DNA from: an uncultured Pelagibacteraceae bacterium
Lineage (GTDB): Bacteria; Pseudomonadota; Alphaproteobacteria; Pelagibacterales; Pelagibacteraceae
Reading direction: 5' to 3'
Assembly (NCBI GenBank): GCA_902558705.1
Contig: CACEEW010000006.1
Coordinates: 1 to 63,082 of the forward strand
Length of the DNA stretch: 63,082 nt
Position 1 is the stretch's first letter, and each line of letters opens with the position of its first letter. This document shows positions 2,560 through 29,319 of this stretch, piece by piece. The notes below the pieces were generated by a model, which saw only the letters and a list, made by a program, of their open reading frames with translations, searched no databases and was not told the origin of the DNA. The position numbers were made by a program, and so were the translations under genes.

Positions 2560-4965
2560 CTAGGATCTAATTTTAGCACCGGTTTTATTTGTTACTGCTT
2601 CGATAATTAAATTATTAATTTTTTCTAAGTCATTATCATTTAAAGTTTTTTCATTTGACTGAATAGTCACGCTAATTGCTATCGACTTTTGATTATCAGG
2701 GATATTTTCACCCTCATAGACATCAAAGACTTTTACATTGCTAATTAATCTTTGATCAACACTAGAAATGGCATTTATCAAATCTTGTGCTTTAACATCT
2801 CTATTAACTACAAATGCAAAGTCTCTCTCTGATTTTTGAAAATCTGAAGTAGTAAATTTTGATTTCTGATCGTTCAATGTTTTTTTAGAAAAGTTTAAAT
2901 ATTCTAGAAAAATTTCAAAACCTATCAAAACATCAGTTTTTATATCTAACTTTTTTAAGATATTAGGATGTATCTCACCAAAATATGCTGCAACTTTATC
3001 TTTGTCTTTATTTAAGAAAATTCTACCTGACTTACCTGGGTGATAATAATTTGGTGTTTTATCATCTATAAAAAATTTATCAGAATTATAACCTGCTTCA
3101 ATAAGAGTTTGTACTACGTCTCTTTTAATATCGAATACATCTACATTTCTTTCTTTGTCAATCCAAGATAGTCTGGATTTTTTACCTGCTGATAAACCAC
3201 ATACAACTGTTGTTTGTTCGCCTGGACTAGAACCAAAAAAAACAGGACCTATTTCAAATATTGATAAATCTTTAAAACCTCTATCTAGATTTTTACTTAT
3301 ATACATAATTAGATTTGAAAATATTGAGTTTCTTAAAACTCCTAATTCAGAACTAATAGGATTTATAATTTTAATTTCTTTTTTTGTTTGTTTAAAATAA
3401 TTATTGTAATTTGAGTCTGTAAAAGACCACGTTATAGCCTCTAAATAACCTTTTGAGGCAATAGCTCTTTGTAAAAAATGAAACAATTTTTGCGTTTGAG
3501 TTAGAGTAGGTTTAGTTCTTTCTTTGATTGGTGCTATAGTTTTTATTTTATCAAAACCACTTATCCTTACTAATTCTTCAACAATATCTATTTCTTGTGA
3601 TATATCAGGTCTCCATGGTGGAACTGTTAACCTCAAATATTTTTTTTCTTTATTACATTTAAAACCAAGATCTTCTAAAATTTTTATCATTTCTTTGGCA
3701 GAAATTTTAAAACCAGATATTTTTTCAAATAAATTGGTATCAAATTTAACAATTTGAGCTTTATGAGTTTCATTTTTTTGAATATCTATTTTGCTAATTT
3801 CTCCACCACAAATTTCTTTTATCAGTGATGCTGCTTTATTTAAGCCTTGTTCAATAGATGATGGATCAATGCCTCTTTCAAATCTGAACTTTGCATCAGT
3901 ATCAAGATTTAATTTTTTTGATGTATTTCTTATTGATCTTGGTTCAAAATAGGCTGACTCCAACAATATATTTTTAGTATCTAATTCTGTTCCTGATCTA
4001 GTTCCTCCAATAATTCCACCTAACCCTAAAACTCCTTTTTGATCGCTGATCACACACATATCCTTCTCCAATTTATACTCTTTATTGTCTAGGGCAGTAA
4101 ATTTTTCCCCAAAATTTGAATTTCGAACAATTATACTTTTTTCAATCTTATCAGCATCATATGCATGTAATGGACGATTTATATCAAGCATCACATAATT
4201 TGTAATATCAACTATCGCTGATATTGGTTTTTGACCAACTGAAATTAATTTATTTTTTAGCCATTGGGGACTTTCTGTATTTTTTACATTGGTAATTAAA
4301 CAACTTCCAAAAGTAGTACAGCCTTGATTTTTTTCTTTGTTAATTTTAATTTTTAAATTTTGTTTTGTTGTTGGTTTAATTTTTTTTTCTTTTAATTTCA
4401 ATAATTTTCCAAAACCTGATGCAGCAAGGTCTCTGGCTATTCCTCTAACACCAAGACAGTCTGGTCTGTTAGGTGTTATTGACAAATCAATAAGATTTGA
4501 TTTTGATTTTGAAAAAAAATTTTTACCAATACTTTTTTCAAATTTAGTTGATAATTCAGTTATCCCATCACTTTCATCAGACAAATTTAATTCAGATTCT
4601 GAACAAAGCATTCCATAAGAAGTGACACCTCTAATTTTAGCTACTAATAATTTTGTTTTAGTTTTAGGAATAGTTGCACCTGGAGGTGCATAAATAGTAA
4701 TTAGTCCTTCTCTTGCGTTAGCTGCTCCACAAACAACCTTTTTAAATTCTTTTTCTCCAACATCAACATCGCAAACTTTAAGTCGATCTGCATTTGGGTG
4801 TTTTTCAGTTTTGATAATTTTTGCTATTTTAAATAATTCATTATCAGCAGATAGACTACCAACACTCTCCACTTCTAATCCTATATTAGTAAGTTGTTCT
4901 AAAAGATGTTTTTCTTTTAAATTAGTCTTTAAATGATCTTGAAGCCAATCAAATGTAATTTTCAT
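2560..4965 (-). CDS. pheT: Phenylalanine-tRNA ligase beta subunit
   Basis: An 801-residue PheT of normal length for the bacterial heterotetrameric (alpha2beta2) enzyme that charges tRNA-Phe. It starts [12 protein letters not shown]. The EMAP/OB-type tRNA-binding domain is at about residues 40-150, the B3/B4 editing region at about 210-390, the B5 domain at about 400-475 and the ferredoxin-fold anticodon-binding domain at the C-terminus (about 710-801). The start ATG overlaps the pheS stop by 4 bp (ATGA), the usual coupling that keeps subunits stoichiometric. Confidence 0.98.
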
Positions 4966-9156: not shown

Positions 9157-10311
9157 TTAATTTACTAATCTTTTATACTCTGAATAAGTAGAAAAACACA
9201 TTTTTTCAACATTAAATTTCTTAATAATGTTTTTTCTTCCCTCTTTTCCCATTAATTTTAGTGATGACTCATCCATTGTAATTGCTTGAATAATTTTTTT
9301 ACTTAAGGAATTAATATCTCCGGCTTCAAATAAAAAACCAGTTTTTTCATTTATTATTGTTTCGTTTGAACCTCCTATATTACTCGCAATAATTAATTTT
9401 TCCATAGATTGAGCCTCCACTGCAACCCTCCCAAAAGCCTCTGGCTCTATTGATGGTGATATGACAATATCTGAGACTTTATAGGCTAAAGCCATATCTT
9501 TACATTGATCTATAAATTTTATTTGATTGGTTAAACGATATTGTTCAGTAATACGGATCAATTTTTTTTTATATAAATCTCTTCCTTGATGACTTCCTAA
9601 TATAACAAGATGAAAAGCTTCATAGCCTAATTCGACTTTTGTTAAATTAATTGCTTCAATGAGCATTTCCTGCCCTTTCCAAGAAGTAAGTCTACCAGGT
9701 ACTAAAATAATTTTTTTTTCTTTATTAATCTCCCATTTTGTAAGAAGTTTTTTTTCATCCTCTTCTAATTTCGAAGATGGATCAAAATAATCTACATTTA
9801 TACCTCTAAATATTACAAGAAATTTTTTTTTAAGTGTTAAAAGTTCAGAATAATTTTCTTTAATATGTGAAAAAATAAAATTCGACCCAGCAATTATCAA
9901 ATCAGATCTAACCATGACAGAGTTGTAAAGTTTTTTTAATTTACCACTAAAATTATAAGTACCATGAAATGTGGTTACAAATTTTCTTCTAGTCAATTTT
10001 GTTGCTAAAAGACATGACCATGCTGGTGCACGACTTCTAGCATGAACTATTGTAATATTAAAAAATAAAATTATTCCAATTAGAATTATTGAATTAAAAA
10101 ATATTAGAATAGGATTTTTACTTTGAACTGGTAGCCTAATTAATTTTACTTTTTTTTTATCTATAAATTTAGTTAACTCACCACCGCTAGTAACAATAAA
10201 AGATTTACAATTATTTTCTGGTAGATAATGCGCAATATCATAACAGCCTGTTTCTGCTCCCCCATATCCTAATTTTGGTATTACCTGTAAAACATTTATA
10301 TTAGACGACAT
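9157..10311 (-). CDS. Family 4 glycosyltransferase
   Basis: A 384-residue GT-B fold glycosyltransferase. The N-terminal Rossmann-like half has GYGGAETGCYDIAHYL at residues 15-30, and a hydrophobic stretch at about 67-88 probably lies on or in the membrane. The nucleotide-sugar-binding C-terminal half contains ILVPGRLTSWKGQEMLIEA (202-220) and the EX7E motif at E291/E299 in EPEAFGRVAVE. Such enzymes add a sugar to lipopolysaccharide, capsule or other lipid-linked acceptors, but the substrate cannot be read from sequence. It is the first gene of the thrS-infC run (0-bp gap to thrS), so it may share their promoter. It is an accessory surface gene placed in a core operon. Confidence 0.88.
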   Translation of the reverse strand: MSSNINVLQVIPKLGYGGAETGCYDIAHYLPENNCKSFIVTSGGELTKFIDKKKVKLIRLPVQSKNPILIFFNSIILIGIILFFNITIVHARSRAPAWSCLLATKLTRRKFVTTFHGTYNFSGKLKKLYNSVMVRSDLIIAGSNFIFSHIKENYSELLTLKKKFLVIFRGINVDYFDPSSKLEEDEKKLLTKWEINKEKKIILVPGRLTSWKGQEMLIEAINLTKVELGYEAFHLVILGSHQGRDLYKKKLIRITEQYRLTNQIKFIDQCKDMALAYKVSDIVISPSIEPEAFGRVAVEAQSMEKLIIASNIGGSNETIINEKTGFLFEAGDINSLSKKIIQAITMDESSLKLMGKEGRKNIIKKFNVEKMCFSTYSEYKRLVN

Positions 10312-27940: not shown

Positions 27941-28266
27941 TGACTTATATAGTTAATGATAAATGCATAAAATGTAAATTGATGGATTGTGTTGAAGTTT
28001 GTCCAGTTGATTGCTTTTATGAAGGAAAAAATATGCTTGTAATTAAACCGGATGAGTGTATAGATTGTGGCGTTTGTGAGCCTGAGTGCCCTGTTGATGC
28101 CATTAAAGCTGACACGGAAGAGGGAAGTGAACAGTGGTTAGAGATCAATAAAAAATATTCTGAAATCTGGCCTAATATAACTGAAAAAAAAGATCCCCCA
28201 ATGGATCATGAAAAATATAAAGATGAGCAAAATAAGTTTGAAAAATATTTTAAAGAAAACATTTAA
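27940..28266 (+). CDS. fdxA: 7Fe (3Fe-4S/4Fe-4S) ferredoxin FdxA
   Basis: A 108-residue dicluster ferredoxin. The N-terminal cluster ligands are in [18 protein letters not shown] and the 4Fe-4S motif is [16 protein letters not shown]. The C-terminal extension (ENEAW-like [18 protein letters not shown]) is typical of the Azotobacter-type 7Fe ferredoxins. It is a cytoplasmic low-potential electron carrier. Its last 59 bp overlap the start region of the carD gene in another frame if the first ATG of that gene is used. Confidence 0.95.
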
Positions 28267-29098
28267 TAAGAAAAAACCTAAAAAGACAAAAAAAAAAGTA
28301 ATTCCAAAAAAAGTTACTAAAACTTCAAAAAAAATTACTAAAAAAGTTATTAATCCTAAAATTAAAAAGTCATTAATTAAAAAATCGCTAATTAAAAAAA
28401 ATACTAAAAAAAAAGAAAAAAATACTGAAATAAAAACTGAAAATTTAAGAATTTCTAAAAATAACGAAACAAAGCCAGAAATAAAAAAAGTAAAAAAACA
28501 AGATTCAGAGAAACGAGAGTATAAAATAAAAGATTATATTGTTTATCCTAAACATGGTGTTGGACAAATAAATGAATTTAAAAAAATAAATATAGGTGGG
28601 ATAGATGTTGAAACTTATATAATCAAATTTGAAAAAGATAAAGCTAACGGTATGGTTCCAGTTAACAAGCAATCACACTTGAGACCATTAGCAACAATTA
28701 ATCAAATTAATAAATGTATTTCAATTTTAAAAAGCAAACCTAAAATTAAAAGATCTATGTGGAGTAGAAGGGCTCAAGAATATGAGGCAAAAATCTCCTC
28801 AGGAAAAATTTATGAGCTTGCTGAAGTAGTAAGAGATTTGAATAAAGGTGATGATCTAATGGTTGATCAATCTTATAGTGAAAGACAGTTATTTGAAAAA
28901 GCCTATGAAAGAATATTGACAGAATTTCAAATAATATTAAATCTTTCCTTAGAAGATACTCAAAAAAAATTAGATAAAGCTTTAAAAAGAAATTTAGCAT
29001 CACAACCACAGCCAAATACTGAGACCTCAAAACAAACTACTTCGGAATTACCTGTAGAAGAAGTTGCAAATGAGAATGAAGTTGCTTTAGAGGAATAA
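28208..29098 (+). CDS. CarD-family transcription regulator with lysine-rich N-terminal tail
   Basis: A 296-residue protein (282-291 residues if later starts are used). Residues from about 104 to 265 form a CarD/CdnL unit: the RNA-polymerase-interacting Tudor-like domain ([20 protein letters not shown]) and the helical DNA-binding domain ([28 protein letters not shown]). CarD stabilises open promoter complexes, especially at rRNA promoters. Ahead of it is an extension of about 100 residues made mostly of Lys with Thr, Ser, Ile and Asn, and a Glu/Thr/Gln-rich tail follows. Usual alphaproteobacterial CarD proteins are about 160-180 residues. The first ATG overlaps fdxA by 59 bp. An ATG at 28223 is an alternative, so the start is uncertain but the long Lys tail is present either way. 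Confidence 0.88.
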
Positions 29099-29143
29099 AA
29101 AAAAACGCCTCTCACACGAAATCGTTATGAGAAGCGTTTTTAA
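29099..29143. terminator. Bidirectional rho-independent terminator
   Basis: A hairpin with 13-position arms (29102-29114 and 29128-29140, 12 pairs, one C/A mismatch) is flanked by a run of A on the left and T on the right. It therefore works in both directions, ending carD on the plus strand and the 25-residue basic gene on the minus strand. It is one of only two convincing intrinsic terminators seen in the window. Confidence 0.85.
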
Positions 29144-29160: not shown

Positions 29161-29238
29161 CTATCTTCTTCTTCTTTTCTTAGCTTTTTTCTTAGCTTTT
29201 TTCTTAGCCTTCTTTGCTTTTTTTCTTCTCTTAGGCAT
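29161..29238 (-). CDS. 25-residue ultra-basic Lys/Arg/Ala protein
   Basis: A complete small frame: it begins MPKRRKKAKKAKKK, continues with KKA repeats and ends in four Arg. After Met-Pro it contains only Lys, Arg and Ala (13 Lys, 6 Arg, 4 Ala among 25 residues), close to the lysine-rich tails of histone H1-like bacterial proteins. Translation is well supported: AGGGAG stands 8 bp before the ATG, a strong ribosome-binding site for this AT-rich genome. A promoter-like TTGACA/TAAAAA pair is at 29319-29291, and a bidirectional terminator lies 18 bp after the stop. It is thus its own transcription unit, convergent with carD. A nucleic-acid-binding or polyanion-binding role is inferred from charge only. 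Confidence 0.75.
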   Translation of the reverse strand: MPKRRKKAKKAKKKAKKKAKKRRRR

Positions 29239-29262
29239 CTTTAGCTCCCTTTTTTAGTTAAA

Positions 29263-29279
29263 CGAATCAAAATGATTCG
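29263..29279 (-). promoter_or_regulatory. Short perfect palindrome in the leader of the basic small gene
   Basis: CGAATCA and TGATTCG, separated by AAA, form a 7-bp perfect stem in the region between the predicted promoter (29291-29319) and the ribosome-binding site. It may be an operator, or an RNA hairpin in the leader. Nothing in the window repeats it obviously. Confidence 0.4.
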
Positions 29280-29290
29280 CTGATACCTTA

Positions 29291-29319
29291 TTTTTATTTT
29301 TTTATAAGCGTTATGTCAA
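29291..29319 (-). promoter_or_regulatory. Promoter of the 25-residue basic gene
   Basis: On the minus strand a perfect TTGACA (29319-29314) is followed after 17 bp by TAAAAA (29296-29291), which matches four of six -10 positions. The predicted start would give a leader of roughly 45 nt that includes the palindrome and the AGGGAG site. Confidence 0.5.

Follow-up and report, generated by a model that had tools for sequence, protein, structure and literature searches.

The window analyzed here, a 63,082-nucleotide stretch of DNA from an uncultured Pelagibacteraceae bacterium, contains a 25-codon gene that converges with carD/cdnL and shares an intrinsic terminator with it (Table 1). After Met-Pro, the encoded protein consists of 13 Lys, 6 Arg, and 4 Ala, with 19 of the 25 residues basic, as a sequence-only reading of this DNA had described it. 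The same reading had assigned to the frame an AGGGAG ribosome-binding site, a leader palindrome CGAATCA/TGATTCG, a TTGACA/TAAAAA promoter with 17-bp spacing, and a bidirectional terminator. The ribosome-binding site (positions 29245–29250), the palindrome (29263–29279), and the terminator hairpin with its T-runs on both strands were recovered; the promoter boxes are present at that spacing as well, with the qualification that TAAAAA is weak and that a promoter scan prefers a variant with an 18-nt spacer. The promoter is made convincing by conservation, not by its consensus score: a TTGAC[A/T] −35 box was found in every complete leader compared, and the distance from this box to CGAATC is 33–36 nt in every genus. 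The implied, putative transcript start lies a few bases 5′ of CGAATC.

Table 1. Features of the small gene and its surroundings (positions counted from the first nucleotide of the window)
Feature	Position	Strand	Remarks
carD/cdnL, convergent neighbor	28208–29098	+	CarD RID and C-terminal domains, Lys-rich N-terminal tail
Bidirectional intrinsic terminator common to the small gene and carD	about 29102–29141	both	Hairpin, T-runs on both strands
25-codon Lys/Arg/Ala protein gene	29161–29238	−	Translation MPKRRKKAKKAKKKAKKKAKKRRRR, stop TAG; conserved frame; synonymous bias
Shine-Dalgarno and start-proximal spacer AGGGAGCTAAAG	29239–29250	−	Nearly invariant in the genus
5′-end leader stem-loop AGCGAATCA-TTT-TGATTCGTT	29261–29281	−	CGAATC of the 5′ arm identical in all leaders long enough to include it
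Promoter	29291–29319	−	−35 TTGACA 29314–29319, 17-nt spacer, −10 TAAAAA 29291–29296

A search for the small frame downstream of carD across Pelagibacterales, the check proposed in that reading, found it conserved in every covered locus. The frame is intact in all 146 loci from the sampled Pelagibacterales genera, belonging to two families, in which the region downstream of carD is covered; this number comprises 145 loci with intact units and one (L071) where the apparent absence is explained by an inserted gene, and the loci do not all represent independent genomes, some genomes having been fetched more than once. Nearly all of the 80 named Pelagibacterales loci keep the small frame, and the named relatives of the window's CarD all belong to Pelagibacteraceae, Pelagibacterales, or Candidatus Pelagibacter. 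Within the window's genus, AGGGAGCTAAAG is present in 118 of 119 units, the remaining one having ATGGAGCTAAAG. Each of 136 genomes of the genus contains a single copy of the motif AGGGAGCTAAAGATG, which joins this leader end to the ATG, and the nine other genera sampled have none. Six near-complete genomes of the genus in which the motif is missing were checked: five of them have no carD match either, likely because of an assembly gap, and the sixth encodes an intact 27-aa frame behind the one-base variant ATGGAGCTAAAG. In L071, the other gene separates carD from the terminator, and the small gene is found about 1 kb further on with the terminator still at its side; the insert (about 3180–3960 of that locus) appears by eye to encode a TylF/FkbM-type methyltransferase. 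A terminator-like fold is present in all 115 unique downstream stretches.

The arrangement is not a chance one, since every Pelagibacterales locus with coverage has the frame together with its ribosome-binding site, promoter, hairpin, and terminator, and the proposal of an independent unit holds. On comparative grounds, conservation establishes the 25-codon frame as a true, separate protein gene with its own promoter, 5′-end leader stem-loop, strong ribosome-binding site, and terminator and, judging from these genomes, it is kept by essentially every SAR11 bacterium examined.

Selection acts on the encoded protein. Counting within length classes of the window's genus, we found 33 of 49 distinct substitutions to be synonymous, compared with 16.0 expected for the same base changes placed at random, and three of the six classes were individually significant; the synonymous bias sought in the proposed codon-level alignment is thus present. 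Every indel or length difference keeps the frame, with lengths from 21 to 35 aa within the genus. Codon choice in the small gene is also distinctive (AAG 0.30, GCT 0.79, CCT 1.0, and ACT 0.85), compared with 0.12 for AAG and 0.43 for GCT in the long open reading frames of the window and 0.13 and 0.44, respectively, in 22 S10/spc ribosomal-cluster genes from this genome. A codon bias like that of ribosomal protein genes is therefore not supported. The longest A-run averages 7.0, versus 8.7 after shuffling of the Lys codons within each gene. Given that A-runs are also interrupted by T-ending codons in front of Lys, A-tract avoidance is the simplest reading of this choice, and the bias probably reflects avoidance of slippery A-tracts.

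At this one syntenic locus, the protein ranges overall from 21 to 91 aa with frames intact. In the other genera of the window's family (f1; genera g5 to g9), lengths span 21–58 aa, namely 21–24 aa in g8 and g9, 31 aa in g6, 36–38 aa in g5, and 34–58 aa in g7. The copy in the sister family (f2) is 80–91 aa long, starts with MEELKVIFAKARKKAKKKAAPKKK, and continues with AAPKKK-type repeats; Pro repeats are added in both the 58-aa and the 80–91-aa orthologs. Most copies begin with the conserved M-A/P-K-R/K and are Arg-rich at the C-terminal end. Orthology across the families is argued from synteny, orientation, leader, and composition, low complexity precluding column-by-column proof for proteins of 25 and 85 aa. 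In 28 loci from other alphaproteobacterial families, the surroundings of carD yielded no convincing H1-like gene, which leaves the length series without an outgroup to polarize it. The earlier suggestion of an H1-like protein, made from charge, gains independent support from the 80–91-aa orthologs with AAPKKK repeats and from the 31–58-aa intermediates.

In the leader, the two arms of the stem behave differently. The 3′ arm is GATTCG in the window's genus and GATTTG, with G-U pairing, in g8 and g9, and g5 to g7 have longer, unrelated stems. The 5′ arm CGAATC does not vary, not even in g7, where most of it is unpaired, indicating that a second constraint acts on it. A symmetric DNA operator is a weakened candidate, given that the 3′ arm differs between genera while the 5′ arm stays, and the palindrome is not a widely shared operator, no more than one further GAATCA-N0-8-TGATTC site being present in any of ten genomes. 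The only other such site in the window's genome (contig C10, positions 10104–10118) falls in or close to the beginning of a purD-like gene. GAATC, a GANTC site of the CcrM type, is found at a fixed distance in every leader reaching that far, but the N is always A, so that what is conserved seems to be CGAATC specifically and not any GANTC. SAR11 bacteria have a CcrM homolog (PMC3973325); we detected a CcrM-type RAMA domain in four of four genomes and GcrA in ten of ten. GANTC is depleted in the window as a whole (95 sites versus 180 expected), and despite this depletion, two GANTC sites lie 10 bp apart in the small-gene leader. The leaders of the sister family and of genera g5 and g7 contain a CUCC/CCUC stretch able to pair with the Shine-Dalgarno sequence, which suggests translational control that would be absent in the window's genus.

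Searches of Pfam and NCBIfam with the 25-, 58-, and 85/91-aa forms and of PDB chains with the 25-, 58-, and 91-aa forms yielded no match, and no Rfam family reached its gathering score for the small-gene RNA; HMMER performs poorly on sequence of such low complexity, which makes these negatives weak. Four other DNA matches examined as potential paralogs proved to be Lys-rich tails of FecR-like proteins and not stand-alone H1 genes; in the window's genus, these are exported proteins with long repetitive Lys-rich C-terminal tails. Carriage by phages was likewise discarded: four pattern matches in IMG/VR are chance occurrences ahead of unrelated frames, and no carD relative was found in that database. 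In the open-access literature, we found no SAR11 protein described as histone-like or nucleoid-associated. According to Stav et al. 2019 (PMC6429828), strain HIMB5 has three unnamed intergenic sORFs with undefined functions; like the small gene, these are short peptide genes in SAR11 intergenic regions, and they could include it.

Among characterized proteins, the closest in composition are bacterial H1-like proteins. Hc2 (HctB) of Chlamydia (165–237 aa) and BpH1 of Bordetella (182–206 aa) are Lys/Ala-rich with Pro and Thr, and both vary in length, in frame, by repeat units; the size of Hc2, which binds both DNA and RNA, varies by Lys-rich pentamers (PMC2848022). The SAR11 protein is also Lys/Ala-rich, of low complexity, and variable in length through in-frame gain or loss of short basic repeats; it differs in its smaller size (21–91 aa), in the window copy being a single block without Pro repeats, and in matching no Pfam or NCBIfam model, a comparison weakened by low complexity. 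It further resembles the Lys-rich C-terminal part of Hc1 (HctA) of Chlamydia, the DNA-binding half of that protein (PMC2848022), but the conserved N-terminal dimerization domain of Hc1 has no counterpart in the 25-aa Lys/Arg/Ala protein, which has no Pfam match.

Similar composition is also seen directly next door, in the Lys-rich N-terminal tails of alphaproteobacterial CarD/CdnL, and in the HMGA-like domain of Myxococcus CarD (PMC4374960). These are parts of an RNA-polymerase-binding protein, whereas the small gene is free-standing and has its own promoter. In SAR11, the CarD/CdnL tail comprises about 100 aa and is Lys-rich and fast evolving (positions 28208–28500 in the window); in several other alphaproteobacterial families, Lys/Ala/Pro tails of CarD reach 80–200 aa, and others have almost none. 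The pairing of the small gene with a Lys-rich-tailed CarD is suggestive of a shared theme and is no proof of interaction.

Taken together, these features lead us to favor, by a modest lean, a nucleic-acid-binding, stand-alone polycation resembling an H1 tail, its likeliest role being that of a DNA counter-ion protein of the nucleoid. The equivalence to the C-terminal tail of H1 derives from the series of 21–91 aa lengths at a single syntenic locus. The 5′ hairpin would stabilize the mRNA and, together with the Shine-Dalgarno sequence and the codons that break A-runs, would give a stable, efficiently translated message. The product would be an intrinsically disordered polycation of about 25 residues, the counterpart of the histone H1 C-terminal tail, that could bind the phosphate backbone of DNA and thereby compact the nucleoid or neutralize its charge. 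Nothing evident in a 25-mer carrying 19 charges would make it prefer DNA to RNA or polyphosphate, and RNA binding may contribute, by analogy with chlamydial Hc2 (PMC2848022).

The main rival is a small basic ribosome- or RNA-binding protein, comparable to the small basic ribosomal proteins of the bTHX or bL36 type, that would bind rRNA and stabilize the ribosome. Tiny basic ribosomal proteins of the bTHX type are very basic and have about 25 residues, like the SAR11 protein, and the core-gene distribution, the strong Shine-Dalgarno sequence, the high basicity, the conserved N-terminus, and the Arg-rich C-terminal end would all suit such a role. However, a protein that is 21 aa long in some genera and 91 aa in the sister family does not look like one adapted to a single rRNA pocket, its codon usage departs from that of the 22 ribosomal-cluster genes (AAG 0.30 vs 0.13; GCT 0.79 vs 0.44), and no PDB chain matches it; we consider this role unlikely. 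What is preserved is chiefly composition and overall charge, with residue order drifting through Lys/Arg exchange and in-frame repeats; this would also fit a general polyanion counter-ion that is not directed at DNA in particular and acts on polyphosphate, on tRNA or mRNA, or as a polyamine substitute, but the neighboring gene encodes a transcription factor, CarD, and such a general role appears improbable.

The remaining alternatives place the function outside the protein. The functional product could be an RNA of about 170–200 nt, small or dual-function, with the peptide secondary: the leader is structured, its CGAATC is invariant even where largely unpaired, and the transcript folds slightly better than shuffled sequences (z = −2.2). 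This appears very improbable in view of the synonymous bias and the exclusively in-frame indels, given also that the leader hairpin and the terminator account for the structure and that Rfam offers no family at gathering score. A short frame of repetitive Lys codons followed by a terminator bears a superficial resemblance to a leader peptide or attenuator acting on a neighboring gene. With the terminator directly 3′ and carD convergent, there is no downstream gene to control, and the unit is unchanged where another gene has been inserted alongside (L071), so that we reject this explanation as having next to no likelihood.

Few cells on Earth are as abundant as those of SAR11 bacteria, whose genomes are pared to a minimum. 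The H1-tail-like reading allows a bolder and decidedly doubtful extension, namely, that a minimal nucleoid protein of about 25 residues, a histone tail and nothing else, is a SAR11 core gene product and may rank with the smallest proteins dedicated to the nucleoid; the invariant CcrM/GcrA-type GAATC at the transcription start would then couple its expression to the cell cycle. A core gene that is too short for many gene callers and has no match in the protein-family libraries searched points, whichever reading holds, to a missing part of DNA or RNA management in SAR11, and the series from 91 down to 21 residues is a natural experiment on how short an H1-like tail can be and still suffice.
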